Below, piece after piece: positions 2,265-36,816 of a DNA stretch of 64,000 nucleotides (position 1 is the first letter of the stretch; every line of letters starts with the position of its first letter). The notes under the pieces are model-generated. The model was not told where the DNA came from. It searched no databases and saw only the letters and a list, made by a program, of their open reading frames with translations. The stretch covers positions 1-64,000 of the forward strand of contig JAFXVF010000016.1 of NCBI GenBank assembly GCA_017524665.1, written 5' to 3'. Source of the stretch: Clostridia bacterium (GTDB taxonomy: Bacteria > Bacillota > Clostridia > TANB77 > CAG-508). The position numbers and the translations under genes are program-made.

Positions 2265-5200
2265 TTATACTTTAGCTGTATCTTTTTTTGTTTCATTTTC
2301 TTTTTTAACTGCTTTTCTTTGACGTGATTGCTGTTTTAAATTATCTTTTGCAACTGTCATAAGAAGCTTAATTCTGTTAGTTTGGTTTGATTCGCTTGCG
2401 CCTGGATCATAGTCTACTGGTGCTATATTTGCTTCTGGGTATTTTTCTCTAATTGCTTTTATTACACCTTTTCCTACAACGTGGTTTGGCAAGCATGCAA
2501 AAGGTTGAACACAAATAATATTAGTAATTCCATGTTCCATATATTCTATCATTTCTGCTGTTAGGAACCATCCTTCACCAGTTTGATTTCCTATTGATAA
2601 AACATCTTTTACTTGTGTTTCTAGATGCCAAATATCACATGGTGGCATATATCCTTTTTCAGATTTTGCTAAAGCAATTTTCATATCTTTTTCTAAAATA
2701 TCAATTAATTTTATTGCCATTTTAAATATATTTGCTTTAGTTTTATCTGTTTTTAAAAGTGTATTAAATGTAATTTTATGTGTTGCCATAAATTTTACAA
2801 ATCCCATAAAATCAGGAAGAATTACTTCTGCGCCTTCTTTTTCTAGAAGATTTGCAACAAAGTTATTTCCAAATGGGTGATATTTAATTAATACCTCACC
2901 AACAATACCAACTTTTGGTTTTACTTTTGATGTGTCTAATTCTATTTTTTCAAAATCTTCAACTATTTGGTAAATGCTTTTTCTAAATTCTCTATTTGTA
3001 GAATCTACTACAAGTTTTTTGCACTTATCCATCCATTCATCAAATAGTTTTTGTGTTTCACCGTGACAAACTTCATAAACTCTATTTTTTGTAAGCATTT
3101 TTTGTAATAAATCTGCATAAACTATAGCTTTTAAAAGTTTTTCTGCAAGTGAAATTGTAAGCTTAAATCCAGGGTTTTTCTCCATTCCAACAACATTAAA
3201 TGATATAACTGGAACTTGGCTAAAACCTGCATCTTTTAAAGCTTTTCTAATAAATCCAATATAGTTTGTTGCTCTACATCCACCACCAGTTTGAGACATT
3301 ATTATTGCAGTTTTATTTGGGTCATATTTTCCAGATTCTAATGCTTCAATAAATTGTCCAGTTGTAAGGATTGATGGATAGCATGCATCATTATTTACGT
3401 ATTTTAATCCAGTTTCTACTGTGTTTGGTGTGCACTCACGAAGTAGTTCAATTTTATATCCTTCAGACCTTACGGCAGATTCAATTAGCTCGAAATGAAT
3501 AGGTGCCATTTGAGGCATTAATATTGTGTATTTTTTCTTCATTTCTTCAGTAAATGGTATCTTTATTTGTGCATAATTTCCACTACCGGTTTGGCTTTCT
3601 TTTAGCCTTTTATTCATGCTTGCAAGCAATGAACGAATACGAATTCTAACTGCTCCTAAGTTGTTTACTTCATCTATTTTTATTAATGTATACATCTTGT
3701 TGTAGCTTGATAAAATTTCTTCAACTTGATCTGTTGTAACCGCATCAACACCACAACCAAATGAGTTTAATTGCACAAGTTCTAGGTTTGGTTTCTTTCC
3801 AACAACTTCTGCTGCAGCATATAATCTTGCGTGGAATACCCATTGGTCAACAACACGAATTGGCCTTTTTGCTTCTCCTAAGTGTGAAATAGAGTCTTCT
3901 GTTAAAACACATAATCCAAGTGAATTAATTAAAGTGTCTATTCCATGGTTTATTTCAGGGTCTACATGATATGGCCTTCCGGCTAAAACTATACCTTTTA
4001 AATTATTTTTTTCAATATATTTTAATGCTTCTTCACCTTTAGTACGGACATCTTGTTTAAATTTACGATATTCTTTTTCTGCTTTTTCTCCAGCAGATAA
4101 AAGCTCTTTTTTGCTAAATTTATATTGTTTAAATTCATCTAATTCAAGAATTCTTGTAGCTAGATTTTTAGAATCTAGTGGTAAGAACGGATTTAAAAAT
4201 GTGATATCACCTTTTTTTAGTTCTTCAACATTGTTCTTTAAAACTTCTGAATATGAGATAACTATTGGGCAGTTATAGTGGTTATCTGCCTTTTCATATT
4301 CTTTTCTTGAATATGGAATACAAGGATAGAAAATTGTTTTTACTCCTTGTTCTAATAGGCTTACTATATGCCCATGAGAAAGTTTTGCTGGGTAGCAAAC
4401 AGACTCTGAAGGCATTGATTCTATACCTTTTTCATATGTTTTACGATTACTTTTTTCTGATAAAACAACTCTAAAACCAAGGTTTGTAAAGAATGTGAAC
4501 CAGAAAGGATAATCTTCATACATATTAAGCACACGTGGAATTCCAATTATACCACGAGGTGCTTTATCTTCTGGTAAAGGCTCATAATTAAATAATCTTT
4601 CAAATTTATATTTATATAAGTTTGGTAAATCTGAATGTGTTACATCAAGCCCGCTACCACGCTCGCAACGGTTACCAGAGATAAATCTTTTCCCATTGCT
4701 AAATTTATTTATTGTAAGAAGACAGTTATTTTCGCATCTTCCACAACGTGCATGTGTTATATCAATTTTTAATTGGTCTAATTCATCAGCTTTTAACATT
4801 GTTGAATAGTATTCCATATCAAAGTTTGCTTCATACTGTTCCTTTGATAAAAGCGCCATTCCGTAAGCTCCCATAAGACCAGCTATATCAGGACGAATTA
4901 CATCTTGACCAACTATTTTTTCAAAACTACGAAGTACAGCATCATTATAAAAAGTACCACCTTGTACTACAATATGCTCTCCAAGTGTTTTTACATCTCT
5001 TACCTTCATAACTTTTTGAATAGCATTTTTAACAACTGAATATGAAAGACCTGCAGAAATATCACCTACTGTATATCCTTCTTTTTGTGCTTGTTTAATT
5101 TTTGAATTCATAAACACAGTACATCTTGAACCTAAGTCAACAGGCCTCTTTGCACTTAATGCTTCTTTTACAAAATCTTCTATTGAAAGGTTTAAACTTT

Positions 5201-30567: not shown

Positions 30568-31623
30568 TTAAGCACTGTATTTTTCTTGTATCTCTTTTAT
30601 TTTATCAAATTCATTTTCTAGAATATCTAAGAATACCTTAGCAATTTGTGGGTCGAATTGTGTACCAGCACATCTTTGGAATTCGCTCTTAACAACATCC
30701 ATTGGAAGTGCAGTACGATATGGTCTTACTGAAGTCATTGCATCAAATGTATCCGCAACAGCAGCAATTCTTGCTAAGAAAGGAATTTCTTCTCCTTTTA
30801 ACTTTGAAGGATATCCTGTTCCATCATATTTTTCATGATGATGTTTTACAATAGGAATAATATCTGCAAATATTGTTGCATTAGATAATATATGAGCACC
30901 TATTGATGGATGGTTTTTGATTTGTGAGTATTCATCGTCAGAAAGTTTAGAATCCTTTAGCAATATGCTATCTGGTACTCCAATTTTACCAATATCGTGG
31001 AACAAACCACCAATTCTTAAAATTCTAAGATCTTCTTCAGAAAGTCCTAATTTTTCTCCTATTAAAACAGAGAAAGCAGAAACACGATCTGAATGTCCTC
31101 TTGTATACACGTCTTTTGCTTCAACCGTTTGACGAAGAGTTTCTATACTCTCCATATAAGCTTTTTCTAGTTTTTCATATGTATCACTTAATTCTTCATT
31201 AATTCTTTTAATGGTATTCATTTGTTCAATAGACTTAATGCCAGACTCTATTAATAGAAGTAGCTGATCCTGTTTATCACTTTTTTCACAATAACCTTGA
31301 ATATCAAGTCTACGAATTGTTTCTAAAGGAGGTGCTAAGTCTTTATGACCTGTAAGTAAAAGAATATATAGGTCTTTATTAAATTTTCTAACTTCTTCTA
31401 CAACTGCATCTCCATGAACTGGTGTCATAATAAAGTCAAGTATAAGCAAATCAAAATGTTCTGATTTTATTCTTTCAACTGCTTCAACTGGATTTGTAAG
31501 TCCAGTTAAGTTGTACCCAGAACGTCTTAAAAAAACGGAAAGAGTATCAATAACACCTGGATCGTCATCTACAGCTATAATTTTGTATTGAGAGTTTTCG
31601 TTTTGTACTGCTCCTTTTCTCAT
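30568..31623 (-). CDS. Response regulator with HD-GYP domain
   Basis: 351 aa. Receiver domain at residues 10-130 (AVDDDPG acidic pocket, LLILDFIM with the phospho-Asp, LLTGHKD). A coiled linker follows, then an HD-GYP domain (about 155-345): GLFHDIGKIGVPD with the HD pair and HHEKYDGTGYP with the GYP triad. Such proteins degrade cyclic di-GMP when phosphorylated. No kinase is adjacent; the nearest is the 7TM kinase at 39912. Confidence 0.92.
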   Translation of the reverse strand: MRKGAVQNENSQYKIIAVDDDPGVIDTLSVFLRRSGYNLTGLTNPVEAVERIKSEHFDLLILDFIMTPVHGDAVVEEVRKFNKDLYILLLTGHKDLAPPLETIRRLDIQGYCEKSDKQDQLLLLIESGIKSIEQMNTIKRINEELSDTYEKLEKAYMESIETLRQTVEAKDVYTRGHSDRVSAFSVLIGEKLGLSEEDLRILRIGGLFHDIGKIGVPDSILLKDSKLSDDEYSQIKNHPSIGAHILSNATIFADIIPIVKHHHEKYDGTGYPSKLKGEEIPFLARIAAVADTFDAMTSVRPYRTALPMDVVKSEFQRCAGTQFDPQIAKVFLDILENEFDKIKEIQEKYSA

Positions 31624-31732
31624 AAAACATACCTTTATGCTTGAAACACAAGCTCCTTTCTTTATTATCCTTATGAATTATATTAATAAATTTAAAAAAA
31701 ATCAATTATTTACTACAAATTTCCGAAAAAAG

Positions 31733-31761
31733 TTGACAAATTTAGTTAACATGAATATAAT
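31733..31761 (+). promoter_or_regulatory. Promoter of the cysS leader
   Basis: TTGACA (31733-31738), 17 bases, TATAAT (31756-31761): full consensus. Confidence 0.9.
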
Positions 31762-31794
31762 AATTGTATCTAAAACAAAGAGAGGGACATATAA

Positions 31795-31836
31795 ATGAAT
31801 CTTAAGAATATAATTATTAATTGCTGTTGTAGATAA
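31795..31836 (+). CDS. Cysteine leader peptide (13 aa, three Cys codons)
   Basis: ATG after AGAGGG, encoding MNLKNIIINCCCR then TAA TAA. Three Cys codons in a row (TGC TGT TGT) at the end of a tiny ORF directly upstream of cysteinyl-tRNA synthetase are the mark of a translation-coupled attenuator. Ribosomes should stall there when charged tRNA-Cys is low. Confidence 0.8.
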   Translation: MNLKNIIINCCCR

Positions 31837-31949
31837 TAATACTCTATCTATTGTAGATATGAGTATTAATTTGCATACCTACAATAGTGATTATATTTTA
31901 TTTAAGATAGATTATAAGAGCTATGTGGGATTTTACACATAGCTTTTTT
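31827..31949 (+). promoter_or_regulatory. Transcription attenuator of cysS
   Basis: Competing stems can be drawn: CTATTGTAG (31848-31856) with CTACAATAG (31879-31887), 9 bp; AATACTC (31838-31844) with GAGTATT (31861-31867), 7 bp; and TTGTAG inside the Cys codons with CTACAA. They precede a terminator, a 9-bp stem AGCTATGTG/CACATAGCT (31919-31944) and TTTTTT. Ribosome position on the Cys codons would choose between them. Confidence 0.72.
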
Positions 31950-31976
31950 GTTTAAAAAAATAAGGAGGAACCGTTT

Positions 31977-33440
31977 ATGAAAATTTACAATTCAATGACT
32001 GGTAGAAAAGAAGAATTTATTCCTATTGATGGAAAGAATGTGAAGATGTATGCGTGCGGAATTACAGTAAACGATTTAAGCCATATTGGTCACGCAAGGC
32101 AAGCAATTGTATATTCAATGTTTGCTGATTACCTAAGATACAGAGGATACAATGTAAAATATGTTAGAAACTATACAGACGTAGATGATAAAATTATAGA
32201 TAAAGCCAATCAATTAGGTAAAAACGCTATCGAATTTTCAAAAGAGCAGATAGTGGAAGCTGAAAAAGATATGCATGAATTACATATTACAGAAGCAGAT
32301 GTAAAAACAAAAGCTTCTGAATATATCGAAAAAATTATCAATTTTGTTGAAAAATTAATTGAAAAAGACATGGCATATGCTACTGAAAAAGGTGATGTTT
32401 ATTACAGAGTAAGAAACTTCAGAAGCTACGGAAAGTTGTCACACAGGAAAGTTGATGAGCTTTTAAATGGAGTTAGAATTGATTTAGAAGAAGGAAAAGA
32501 AGACCCAATTGATTTTGCACTTTGGAAATCAGCTAAACCGGGTGAAGTTTCATGGGATTCTCCATGGGGAAAAGGAAGACCAGGTTGGCATATTGAGTGC
32601 TCTGTAATGGCTACTGATACACTTGGCGAAACAATAGACATTCATGGAGGCGGAAGAGACTTAATATTCCCACACCACGAAAACGAAATTGCACAAAGTG
32701 AAGCATTAACAGGAAAAGACTTTGCACATTATTGGTCACACTGCGGACTTATAAAAATAAATGGTGAAAAGATGAGTAAATCACTTGGAAATTCAATAAC
32801 AATAAGAGATGCAGTTAAAATGTATGACTATGAAGTTATCAAATATTTAATGCTTTCAAAACATTATTCTTCTGATATAGATATTCATGATGAAGACTAT
32901 GTACTTGCAGAAAAGCAATTGTATTATTTCTATAATACTATTTCTGCAGCAGAAAAGTATGCTAAAATATATAATGGTGATGCAAATGGAGAAAGGGTTG
33001 AAGACGATAGCCTTAATACAATTAAAGAACAATTTATAGTTGCTATGGATGATGACTTTAACACTCCAGTTGCTATTGCAAACTTGCATGTAGCACTTAA
33101 AAACCTAAATAATCTAATAAAAACATCAAATAAAGCGAATAGGCAAGTTGTTGCTAATACAGTTGTAAAGAGTGTAAATGATGTAAAAGAAGTATATGGA
33201 GTTTTAGGATTGCTTAAACAAAATCCAGAAGAATTTGCAAATAAAATGAAAGAAAAGTATTTAAGCAAAATGAACCTAGATGAAAAATATATTAATGATG
33301 AAATTGAAAAAAGGGCTGAAGCTAAGAAAAATAAGGATTACGAGCAAGCAGATAAAATAAGAGCAGAACTAGATAGTAAGGGCATAATATTAAATGACAC
33401 AGTGGATGGAACTAAATGGGACATAAAGGAATTATACTAA
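31977..33440 (+). CDS. cysS: Cysteinyl-tRNA synthetase
   Basis: 487 aa. Class I signature as HIGHARQ (residue 37), zinc-binding Cys and His (MYACGIT, GWHIECS, HHENE), and KMSKS (IKINGEKMSKSLGN). Charges tRNA-Cys in the cytosol. GGAGG lies upstream of the ATG and the cysteine leader and attenuator lie just before. No T-box motif (GGTGG core) is seen, in contrast to many Firmicute cysS genes. Confidence 0.95.
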   Translation: MKIYNSMTGRKEEFIPIDGKNVKMYACGITVNDLSHIGHARQAIVYSMFADYLRYRGYNVKYVRNYTDVDDKIIDKANQLGKNAIEFSKEQIVEAEKDMHELHITEADVKTKASEYIEKIINFVEKLIEKDMAYATEKGDVYYRVRNFRSYGKLSHRKVDELLNGVRIDLEEGKEDPIDFALWKSAKPGEVSWDSPWGKGRPGWHIECSVMATDTLGETIDIHGGGRDLIFPHHENEIAQSEALTGKDFAHYWSHCGLIKINGEKMSKSLGNSITIRDAVKMYDYEVIKYLMLSKHYSSDIDIHDEDYVLAEKQLYYFYNTISAAEKYAKIYNGDANGERVEDDSLNTIKEQFIVAMDDDFNTPVAIANLHVALKNLNNLIKTSNKANRQVVANTVVKSVNDVKEVYGVLGLLKQNPEEFANKMKEKYLSKMNLDEKYINDEIEKRAEAKKNKDYEQADKIRAELDSKGIILNDTVDGTKWDIKELY

Positions 33441-33501
33441 AATTGAAATTGATAATGTTTTATGATATTATTAAAACAACTAATAACGTATGGGGGATAA
33501 A

Positions 33502-35217
33502 ATGAAAAAAGTACTATTAATAGGTTTAATTTTAATAGTAATAATTGTAGGGCTTGAGGGAAAATCATATGCTGAATCATATGGAAGAATTGTTTCTTTT
33601 GATAATAACAAAATAATGACATACCAGCAATTAGACTATATGCGAATTGTTTCATCCAAAGGTCATATTCTTTCAGAACTGCAAACAAATACATATATAG
33701 GCACAGAGGAGACAATAACAAGAATGGGGAAGAATTTAGATATCTGTCTTATAGTAGACTTATCAGGTTCAATGGATGAAGCAACAAATGCAGACGAATA
33801 CAAAAAGTATTATGACGCATATAAAGAAGTAAAAAAGCAATTTGAAAAAGATATTCGTGATGGTATAATTAAAATTTATGATGATGATGGAAGCGTAATT
33901 GCCCCGTCAGATATATTAAAAATCAGAAACAGTAAAGACTATAAAAATAAACTAACAGAAAAAAAGGATGAAACTCGAAGAGAAAATCCGTATGTAACAA
34001 AACTTGAGGTTCTAAAAAATGGAACGATTGAGCTAATAAGAAAAATAAAAGAAAAATATGATGGTAGCGAGTATACTGTAAGAATCGGTATTGTAACATA
34101 TGAGTCTAAAATTAAATTAGCGTTCAATTTGACGGAGTGCACGGATGAAAAATTTGAATTAATGAAAGAAAAAATTCAAAGTTTTGAAGCTGATGGAACC
34201 ACAAAAACTTATGCTGCAATGCAATTTGCCAAAGAAAGAGTTTGGCAAAAAGATAATGCAGATACTCTAAAATACACTATTTTAATTACAGATGGGCTTG
34301 CAACAAACCGCGAAACTATTGGAAGTGAAAAGTTCGGACTTGAAATAAATGACATAAAAAAAATAACAGATAAATTTTTCACTATATTTATAGCAAGTGG
34401 TCAAAAAGTAGATGAATACAAAAAAGCAGCTGAAGACTATAAAAATTCAGATGAATCATTATTTATTGACTCTAAAGAGTTTTATAATATTATGACTGAA
34501 GAATTGTTCGATTATGTTGTAACATCGCATGTGAATGCGCTGTCGCTGATTACAGAAGTAATACAAGCACGTAATGCAAAAATTGGAGATACAAATAGCT
34601 TCTTTGCAGAAATAGATAGTGAGCTTTTAAATGGGGCTATTATGGAGATGGAATACAGTTTTAATATTGTTACCACAGAAGAAATAGAAAGTATAAAAAT
34701 AAAAGATTATTTAGGGGATTTAGGGTTCGATGAAAATGCAAAACTGATAACAAGCGGAGAAACAAATACTTCATTTGGGTGGAAAAAAACAAACAATGGA
34801 ATTTTGTACACAACCATAACCCCAACAATGGAAGTAGATGAAAATGGTAAATATAAACCTATATCTATTAAGCTTTTATTAACAAAAGTAATATCTATAG
34901 GATCTGATATAACTGAGCAAGACAACAAAGCAGATATTGAAATAAAAACTAAAAGTGGACAGATTTATAAAACTGCAGATGCATTAGACGATGGAACTAT
35001 CATTGAAAGTCTTGAGGACTTTGAACTAATTGAAGAAGATCCGCAAGGAAAGATAATAAGAATAGCAGGAAAAATTTTACCTCCAACTATAACAGTAACA
35101 GATCCAATGGGAAATAAAGAAAAAGATTTTGCGATAGTTATTGCTATTGTAATAAGCACGGCGGTGATATGTTTATTTGCATATTGTACAAGAATAATAA
35201 AGAAAAAGAAAACATAA
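33502..35217 (+). CDS. vWA-domain surface protein, first of tandem pair
   Basis: 571 aa from ATG 33502, chosen because GGGGG lies between it and the earlier ATG 33490. Signal peptide at residues 1-22 (ending SYAES). The vWA domain carries an intact MIDAS: IVDLSGSMD near residue 85 and the TKTYAAM and LITDGLAT motifs, with a large insertion after the first. The C-terminus has a membrane helix (AIVIAIVISTAVICLFAYC) and a basic tail, so it is anchored in the membrane. Probable adhesion or scaffold role. A paralogue follows. Confidence 0.85.
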   Translation: MKKVLLIGLILIVIIVGLEGKSYAESYGRIVSFDNNKIMTYQQLDYMRIVSSKGHILSELQTNTYIGTEETITRMGKNLDICLIVDLSGSMDEATNADEYKKYYDAYKEVKKQFEKDIRDGIIKIYDDDGSVIAPSDILKIRNSKDYKNKLTEKKDETRRENPYVTKLEVLKNGTIELIRKIKEKYDGSEYTVRIGIVTYESKIKLAFNLTECTDEKFELMKEKIQSFEADGTTKTYAAMQFAKERVWQKDNADTLKYTILITDGLATNRETIGSEKFGLEINDIKKITDKFFTIFIASGQKVDEYKKAAEDYKNSDESLFIDSKEFYNIMTEELFDYVVTSHVNALSLITEVIQARNAKIGDTNSFFAEIDSELLNGAIMEMEYSFNIVTTEEIESIKIKDYLGDLGFDENAKLITSGETNTSFGWKKTNNGILYTTITPTMEVDENGKYKPISIKLLLTKVISIGSDITEQDNKADIEIKTKSGQIYKTADALDDGTIIESLEDFELIEEDPQGKIIRIAGKILPPTITVTDPMGNKEKDFAIVIAIVISTAVICLFAYCTRIIKKKKT

Positions 35218-35385: not shown

Positions 35386-36816
35386 ATGAAAAAAATTGTA
35401 TGTGTATTTCGTTTATTATTTATAACAATTCTGGTGTTATTGACAAGTGGTACTGTATATGCAGAAGAAGGCAGAATTGTTTCTTTTGACAATGATAAAA
35501 TAGTAGTGTTTCAACAATTAGATTATATGAGAATAACAACATCAAAGGGAAATTTATTATCAGAATTAGAAACGAAAACTGATATAGGAACTGAAAGTGT
35601 AACATATAGTACATCTAGTAATATAGATATTTGCTTTATACTTGATAAATCTGGTTCAATGAAAAATGGAAGATTAGAAATTCTAAAAGAAGCAGTAATA
35701 AAACTTATTGATAATTTGCGTTCAAACTTTGAAGACAAATCTAAATTAAGAATAGCTGCAATGACTTTTTCAACAGGAAACGAGCTTTTATTTAATCTTA
35801 CTGAATGTACAGATGAAAATTTGCCAATGATACGAGGAAAAATAAATAGTATGACATATAATGGAGGTACATTTACTGTATCTGCCATGAAATATGCTCA
35901 AGCTAATATTTGGAACAATCCTATTCCAAATGATACAATTAGATATACAATATTAATTACAGATGGTGAAGCTGATCATACGGAAATTAGTGAGGTTAAC
36001 AATACGATAAATAGTATAAAAAATGATGCTACATCGGGATTATTTACAGTTTTTTGTGCAGAAGATAAAGAAGTACTAAATGGACGCGGAGGACGTTCTA
36101 AATTAAGTGAATTATACGGTGAATCTGATGAAATTGTTTTTTGCAGTGATGAAAACTTTGAAGAAACAATAACAGTTGAAGTATTTAACTTTATAACAGA
36201 AAGATATGTAGATATAAAATCATTAAAAACAGAAACAATACAAGCATATAATGCAAAGGCATTAAACGAGAACTCGGTAGAAGCGGAAATAGATGACGAA
36301 TTATTACAAGGTGCAACTTTAGAAATGGAATATAGCTTTAACATTGTTACAACCGAAGAGATAGAAGAAATAAGTATAGAAGATTTTATAACAAGTTTAG
36401 GATTCGACAAAGATGCTAAGCTTATAACTGCAAATGAAACAAATAATACATATGGATGGAATCCTGTTAATGATACTGTAGTTACAACATTTGCACCTAT
36501 AATGGAAAAAGAAGAAGACGGTAGTTATAAAAGGATTGTTGTAAAATTATTGCTTAACAAGGTAATAGCAATTGATTCAGATATAACAGATGAAACGAAC
36601 AAAGCGAATATTACAATAAAAACAAAAAGCGGTGAAACATATACAACAAAGAATTTATCAACACAAGGGCAAGACACATATGCAATATCTCCATCTATTA
36701 CTATAACGTCACCAAAGGGAAATAATAGTAATTTTAATGACTTATTTGTAATTATCTTTACACTTATACTCCTTGTAGCTATTTTAAACATAAAAAATAA
36801 CAATATTCGTAAGTAA
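35386..36816 (+). CDS. vWA-domain surface protein, second of tandem pair
   Basis: 476 aa. Signal peptide (ends VYAEEG), then RIVSFDNDKI and QQLDYMRI that match the first paralogue almost residue for residue. MIDAS: FILDKSGSMK near residue 85, GGTFTVSAM and LITDGEAD. It lacks the insertion found after DxSGS in the paralogue. The C-terminal helix (LFVIIFTLILLVAIL) anchors it. AAAAGGAG precedes the ATG. A tandem duplication with divergence, each copy with its own promoter and terminator. Confidence 0.85.
   Translation: MKKIVCVFRLLFITILVLLTSGTVYAEEGRIVSFDNDKIVVFQQLDYMRITTSKGNLLSELETKTDIGTESVTYSTSSNIDICFILDKSGSMKNGRLEILKEAVIKLIDNLRSNFEDKSKLRIAAMTFSTGNELLFNLTECTDENLPMIRGKINSMTYNGGTFTVSAMKYAQANIWNNPIPNDTIRYTILITDGEADHTEISEVNNTINSIKNDATSGLFTVFCAEDKEVLNGRGGRSKLSELYGESDEIVFCSDENFEETITVEVFNFITERYVDIKSLKTETIQAYNAKALNENSVEAEIDDELLQGATLEMEYSFNIVTTEEIEEISIEDFITSLGFDKDAKLITANETNNTYGWNPVNDTVVTTFAPIMEKEEDGSYKRIVVKLLLNKVIAIDSDITDETNKANITIKTKSGETYTTKNLSTQGQDTYAISPSITITSPKGNNSNFNDLFVIIFTLILLVAILNIKNNNIRK

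Follow-up and report, generated by a model that had tools for sequence, protein, structure and literature searches.

Aminoacyl-tRNA synthetase genes of Firmicutes are usually under T-box control. In attenuators of the trp/his type, the position of the ribosome on a run of regulatory codons selects either the antiterminator or the terminator. Such leader-peptide attenuators are usually regarded as separate, fast-evolving inventions of individual operons and, to our knowledge, leaders of different operons have not been described as having a common sequence scaffold.

The ribosome-mediated mechanism is summarised in PMC9413887. At cysS, the uORFC-8-2 motif of Rhodobacterales includes an upstream ORF with Cys codons, a stem that includes these codons and a terminator, and ribosome-mediated attenuation has been proposed for it (PMC8632094). 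That motif is restricted to Alphaproteobacteria, shows two prominent stems, has two Cys codons that mostly occupy positions 14-15, and occurs upstream of cysS only (PMC8632094). Among Firmicutes, His leader peptides are reported in PMC2965389 at hisS*/hisZ of bacilli, and in PMC9413887 at the his operons of the Bacillus cereus group, Peptostreptococcaceae and Erysipelotrichales. Leader-peptide attenuation involving cysteine codons is also mentioned for Actinobacteria (PMC1262725; M. tuberculosis, PMC13236596), a phylum other than that of the leaders described here. Taken separately, therefore, Cys leaders at cysS and leader attenuators in Firmicutes are both known.

The locus studied here lies in a 64,000-nt stretch of a Clostridia bacterium genome (contig JAFXVF010000016.1, positions 1 to 64,000), referred to below as the window. 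The gene that would be controlled is cysS (31977-33440, forward strand), which encodes a cysteinyl-tRNA synthetase of 487 aa (TIGR00435, 515.5 bits, above the cut-off) and is the sole cysS found in its genome. In front of it, the first-pass annotation had described a complete trp-type attenuator composed of a perfect promoter, a 13-aa ORF ending NCCCR, mutually exclusive stems and a terminator, and each of these elements was recovered, all on the forward strand. The sigma-70-type promoter (31733-31761) has TTGACA at -35 (31733-31738) and TATAAT at -10 (31756-31761) with a spacer of 17 nt, and matches the consensus at 12/12 positions; promoters of the TTGACA type also precede most homologous leaders. 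A putative Shine-Dalgarno sequence, GAGAGGGA (31780-31787), includes AGAGGG ~8 nt 5' of the leader ORF, and a purine-rich sequence of this kind was found ahead of almost all homologous leaders. The ORF itself, MNLKNIIINCCCR (31795-31836), has 13 codons (M N L K N I I I N C C C R, then a stop codon), with the Cys codons TGC TGT TGT at 31822-31830. The intrinsic terminator (31916-31949), a hairpin with a 12-pair stem followed by a U run, ends 27 nt from the cysS start codon, which is preceded by a putative Shine-Dalgarno sequence, AAGGAGGA (31962-31969). Two terminator-like sites were seen in the region, with 0.2 expected. A role of the terminator as the end of an upstream operon was ruled out, since the upstream neighbour, a divergent gene for a response regulator resembling the NosR family (30568-31623), is on the opposite strand. 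Further downstream, between cysS and asnS, the window encodes two related secreted or membrane proteins with a von Willebrand A-type look (33490-35217 and 35386-36816), the first of which gave no NCBIfam match.

The statement that no T-box motif is present at cysS was borne out by Rfam searches, both at the gathering threshold and under permissive settings. The region 31600-32100 gave no match to the T-box model (RF00230) even at E up to 5, T-boxes being detected elsewhere in the genome; none of all 4227 Rfam models reached its gathering score in the window leader, and 20 homologous loci, the majority with other specificities, likewise gave no match at gathering score. The accompanying remark that Firmicute synthetases are usually T-box-controlled is true of this very genome, where T-boxes precede pheS, ileS, valS and, below gathering score, thrS (gene names assigned by eye from the translations). 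Since T-boxes stand at these four genes and an attenuator at cysS, two predicted charged-tRNA sensing systems coexist in the genome, split by amino acid.

The window leader has a folding energy of -52.7 kcal/mol, as compared with -31.9 ± 3.5 kcal/mol for shuffled sequences (z = -6.0). Segment a (31807-31819), which lies in the leader coding region, is predicted to pair with c2 (31885-31897) if left uncovered by the ribosome. Segments b (31838-31850), directly 3' of the stop codon, and b' (31854-31867) form the 5' and 3' arms of a small hairpin, and b', with the end of b, may alternatively pair with c; in the window this alternative comprises nine pairs between CTATTGTAG (31848-31856) and 31879-31887. 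Segment c (31874-31897) consists of CATACCTACAATAG (31874-31887) plus c2, TAGTGATTATATT (31885-31897), and has a, b' or d as its partner. Segment d, CTATGTGGG (31921-31929), is either the 3' arm of the antiterminator, when paired with c, or the 5' arm of the terminator, when paired with e (31936-31943), and pair counts support both pairings. The a:c2 helix (31807-31819/31885-31897) excludes the antiterminator (31878-31887/31921-31929), which in turn excludes the terminator.

The window element very probably senses charged tRNA-Cys as a ribosome-mediated transcription attenuator with trp-type logic. Transcription would start near 31768, and a ribosome would translate the 13-codon leader. With ample Cys-tRNA, the ribosome would get past all three Cys codons and reach the stop codon, where its leading edge would cover b and b' would consequently pair with c; once the ribosome is released, a would pair with c. 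With c occupied by b' or a, the d:e terminator would form and RNA polymerase would halt before cysS. Under a shortage of Cys-tRNA, the ribosome would wait on the Cys codons with a masked and b left free, b:b' would form, followed by the c:d antiterminator, and cysS would be transcribed. In related bacteria, the scaffold with His, Leu/Val/Ile or Arg codons stands before genes for the matching amino acid. The parts, their conservation, covariation and spacing, and the match of codons to genes are seen in the sequences themselves, and from these features we infer ribosome stalling, transcription read-through and the cysteine response of the cysS leader.

In a folding test of this scheme, the A site of a ribosome was placed at every codon of the leader, the RNA 3' of that ribosome was folded, and the cost of keeping d from the terminator was calculated on the assumption of a 12-nt ribosome edge and with free energies at 37 °C. 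In the window, placing the A site at either of the leading two Cys codons gave a modelled antitermination cost of ~2 kcal/mol (1.9), which rose to 8.5 for the stop codon and to 10.9 for ribosome-free RNA. Median costs for the sensing codons, the stop codon and no ribosome were 1.9, 8.0 and 9.4 kcal/mol, respectively, in 35 Cys leaders and 5.8, 12.4 and 10.5 kcal/mol in 53 His leaders. In 37 of 39 leaders of several specificities, the cost at the stop codon exceeded the minimum; the stop-codon penalty was absent in the leaders of G198 and G211 and almost absent in that of G330. The minimum lay mostly on or beside the sensing run (HH in HHHRRSL, RR in RRRR and LVGLL in LKLVGLLLI), and the key codons ranked first or second in 25/35 Cys and 45/53 His leaders, all of which are related by common descent. 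In several Cys leaders, including that of the window, codons just 5' of the Cys run score equally well. In the equilibrium fold of the full-length RNA the terminator is often still favoured; hence the switch would have to depend on kinetics, with c:d already in place when e emerges.

Orthologues of cysS resembling that of the window (~54% to 87% identity) have a scattered distribution in the order, alongside a second, ~37%-identical cysS type. A homologous leader was found ahead of such orthologues in 12 other genomes, making 13 loci with the window. All 13 leaders have at least two adjacent Cys codons, with TGC and TGT exchanged synonymously, and b begins 17-23 nt past the first Cys codon and 4-7 nt past the first base of the stop codon.

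Covariation of the stems in relatives had been proposed as a check, and the helices do covary in sets of 13, 44 and 104 sequences. Pairs in the cysS leaders were counted on a Cys-anchored, structure-free MAFFT alignment of the 13 loci (A2). The terminated fold had 96.8% of cells paired, as compared with at most 54.8% in slid controls, and 33 double-change cells versus 11.5 ± 3.1 in shuffles; the antiterminated fold had 97.5% and the fold with b':c plus the terminator 93.3% of cells paired. Helix a:c2 reads ATTATTA/TAGTGAT in the window, TTTGCTA/TAGCAAA in G112, TTCACTA/TAGTGAA in G141 and TCTTTA/TAGAGA in RGIG8360, and compensatory changes occur in the leader:c, b:b' and terminator helices of the Cys leaders. 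In the alignment of 44 sequences, a:c2 showed double compensatory changes in 9/9 counted pairs, though a codes for differing peptides; this alignment was fitted to the model structure and is biased towards it, and the structure-free A2 agrees. Among 104 rows, double changes were again found in 9/9 counted pairs of a:c2 and, over all helices, in 27/32 pairs (569 cells versus 185), the set including four antisense echoes of the palindromic scaffold. Segments b:b' and d:e covary in the family alignments. The antiterminator c:d, which is outside the covariance model, had 92-95% of cells paired and four pairs with double changes (14 cells versus 3.8 in shuffles); compensated examples are GTCTACA/TGTAGAC and CCTGCA/TGCAGG, as well as a matched insertion ATATAG/CTATAT in G065.

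On this comparative evidence, the ORF, codons, spacing and helices of the window are not a product of chance, as they are found again, with compensatory changes, in 12 further genomes. A constitutive leader, in which a chance Cys-rich ORF would be followed by an ordinary terminator with no regulation, has next to no probability, given that codons, spacing and mutually exclusive covarying helices are conserved in ~100 loci.

A first covariance model (R1), built from the 13 Cys leaders only, found ~50 sites in 38/385 genomes of the order, many of them ahead of genes other than cysS. With a second model (R2), built from 44 sites of the R1 stage, the scaffold was detected in 88 of the 385 sampled genomes, the newly found sites being mostly His leaders. 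Leaders with NCCC codons precede cysS, cysK and cysE; those with LHHHRRSL (or HHHCR) precede hisS and hisZ, the LHHHRRSL type being found also before hisG, hisC and a histidine-racemase-like gene; ilvB leaders are of the VGLLL type (e.g. KLVGLLLI or VLVGLLR), and the leader of a GNAT-argB gene reads IIRRRRH, with an RRRR run. Conservation of the Cys codons, the other check proposed by the first-pass annotation, was complete in the Cys-type leaders with an assigned gene (35/35; 18 cysS, 12 cysK and 5 cysE), with TGC and TGT interchanging. His-type leaders occur before 33 recognised His genes, as well as 8 ABC transporters, 10 GNATs and a few others; a VGLL-type leader was present at 8/8 ilvB genes, and argB is represented by one leader. 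No His-type leader before a Cys gene, nor any other Cys/His crossover, was met among the tallied loci, and the association of Cys and His codons with the genes gave p = 4e-20 in Fisher's test, the loci being homologous and not independent. One row of the tally, scored as branched-chain before hisZ, is a product of the scoring script; the likeliest mis-scored loci, in G085 and G297, both have HHH leaders. Representative genes were named with NCBIfam as hisS, hisZ, amino-acid ABC binding protein, GNAT-argB, radical SAM protein, cysK and cysE, and as a CntK-like histidine racemase, the last with a score under the curated cut-off; since several of the genes were entered as fragments, the cut-offs were not always reached. 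In a tree of the short scaffold, 10 changes of specificity label were counted versus a mean of 36.7 and a minimum of 31 in shuffles, i.e. the labels are largely clustered; the support of the tree is too low for rooting the codon swaps.

The c/d core (CCTACA...TGTAGG) is strongly conserved across the specificities, perhaps beyond the need of a bare attenuator, and this would suit a metabolite- or protein-binding riboswitch (e.g. a cysteine aptamer) with its conserved core in c and d and the ORF incidental or secondary. We regard such a riboswitch as very improbable. The specificity cannot come from a ligand pocket in the core, since the core is constant whereas the codons change along with the amino acid of the gene; furthermore, the sequence of the covarying helix a, which is part of the coding region, changes freely. 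Conservation of c and d follows from their alternative partners, which are a, b' and d for c, and c and e for d. Slightly less credible still is an arrest by the nascent peptide, in which a ligand would cause the peptide to stall the ribosome, as with the tnaC or erm leaders, with no part played by a lack of charged tRNA. The His leaders do have a conserved frame, IFLNQLHHHRRSL, in common, as such an arrest might require, but the codons past the His run also lie near or in the pairing region of b, the peptides of the four classes share nothing in sequence beyond the sensing run, the residues of Cys leaders outside the run vary, and the modelled folding optimum fits stalling at the run itself. 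The reading of the window element as a trp-type attenuator is supported by the retained Cys codons, the covarying stems and a modelled folding optimum at or next to these codons.

Relatives that keep the structure and lack the ORF had been named as a finding that would speak against the attenuator. This situation was absent at nearly all of ~100 loci and was met once, in G244 (L180), where the scaffold stands ahead of a GNAT-argB-type gene and the leader start looks lost, apparently replaced by an unrelated hairpin sequence. This locus is probably a decaying copy or a misassembly.

Several loci of the family have further features. In G054, a tandem pair of family attenuators (L229:251-414 and 485-663) stands before hisG, the first of which reads MKNITIVKMHNHKFHTYIA. 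At the loci of G137 and G138 (L146, L147 and L183), two variant-type cysS copies occur in one genome, with a Cys attenuator at each locus, one of them upstream of a cysE that precedes cysS. In five His-leader operons (L164, L191, L194, L197 and L204), an M20-type peptidase accompanies either a histidine-racemase-like gene or a GNAT (families assigned by eye), and the leader codons suggest that the unassigned genes may serve salvage of histidine or of His-peptides or acyl-His. Amino-acid ABC transporters behind HHHRRSL leaders (L205, L208, L213, L214, L223, L230, L235 and L239) have their best NCBIfam match in Lys/Arg/Orn transporters, and are probable histidine transporters. A radical SAM protein is encoded behind RWHRH or KKEHKH leaders in L182 and L159, the sensing residue of which may be His or Trp; in L182, a SAM riboswitch (2892-3001) lies further downstream, before an S-adenosylmethionine-synthetase-like gene.

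In a search of 391 genomes of the class, R1 matched only members of the order, and nothing convincing was found outside the order in the class and phylum samples. Weak R2 matches in these samples (E 8e-5 to 8e-4) resemble ordinary terminators without a leader ORF and were rejected, and leaderless matches of ~40 bits inside the order (at recJ genes of G131 and G340, and in G105 and G228) are probably false. Many genomes of the order have cysS without the attenuator. For the ~37%-identical cysS type, 20 upstream regions contained neither a T-box nor a significant R2 match. In G113 (L031/L184), a leader MKKFEIKNTCWCS and a terminator lie ~340 nt 5' of a 43%-identical cysS with no R2 match, and this leader is possibly an independently evolved Cys attenuator. 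Ahead of some cysS copies (L009, L012 and L013), e.g. between a cysK-like gene and cysS, there are short inverted repeats behind promoter-like sequence, of the form GTCACTAA(A/G)AAATTT(C/T)GAAGTGAT in L009 and L013; these are perhaps another regulatory RNA.

As compared with the described systems, the cysS-leader family resembles the trp/his-type attenuators of Proteobacteria in having a regulatory-codon run in a short leader and an amino-acid gene downstream, and the 1:2, 2:3 and 3:4 pairings of the latter correspond to a:c or b':c, c:d and d:e, respectively. It differs from them in the small hairpin b:b' placed between a and c and in that a single scaffold serves Cys, His, branched-chain and Arg genes. 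The arrangement published for uORFC-8-2 differs from that of the window leader. The His leaders of Firmicutes are similar as His-codon attenuators that replace T-boxes; in the consulted passages of PMC2965389 and PMC9413887, they differ in being presented lineage by lineage, for His only and with no scaffold common with Cys, Ilv or Arg leaders. The T-box (RF00230) is also a single scaffold with swapped codon-like specificity that serves many amino-acid genes, but it binds tRNA directly, whereas the cysS-leader family would sense via a ribosome that translates the leader ORF. Open-licence papers yielded no account of a common scaffold with exchangeable codons, nor of Cys, Ilv or Arg leaders in Clostridia, and the scaffold is apparently an undescribed RNA family of this kind. 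It is likely that the leaders did not evolve separately and that one scaffold of common descent was duplicated and re-coded for Cys, His, Leu/Val/Ile, Arg and perhaps other amino acids within one order of small-genome Clostridia, as a ribosome-reading counterpart of the T-box.

With the structure kept while the codons track the gene, the evolution of ribosome-based sensing would become directly traceable, as would the exchange between such sensing and T-boxes across the synthetases of one genome. For annotation, the sensing codons may hint at the substrate of unknown genes: His codons, for example, stand ahead of ABC transporter genes, of a GNAT paired with an M20-type peptidase, and of genes for a racemase and a radical SAM protein. 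Codon-programmable reporters of charged tRNA could also take the scaffold as a natural base.
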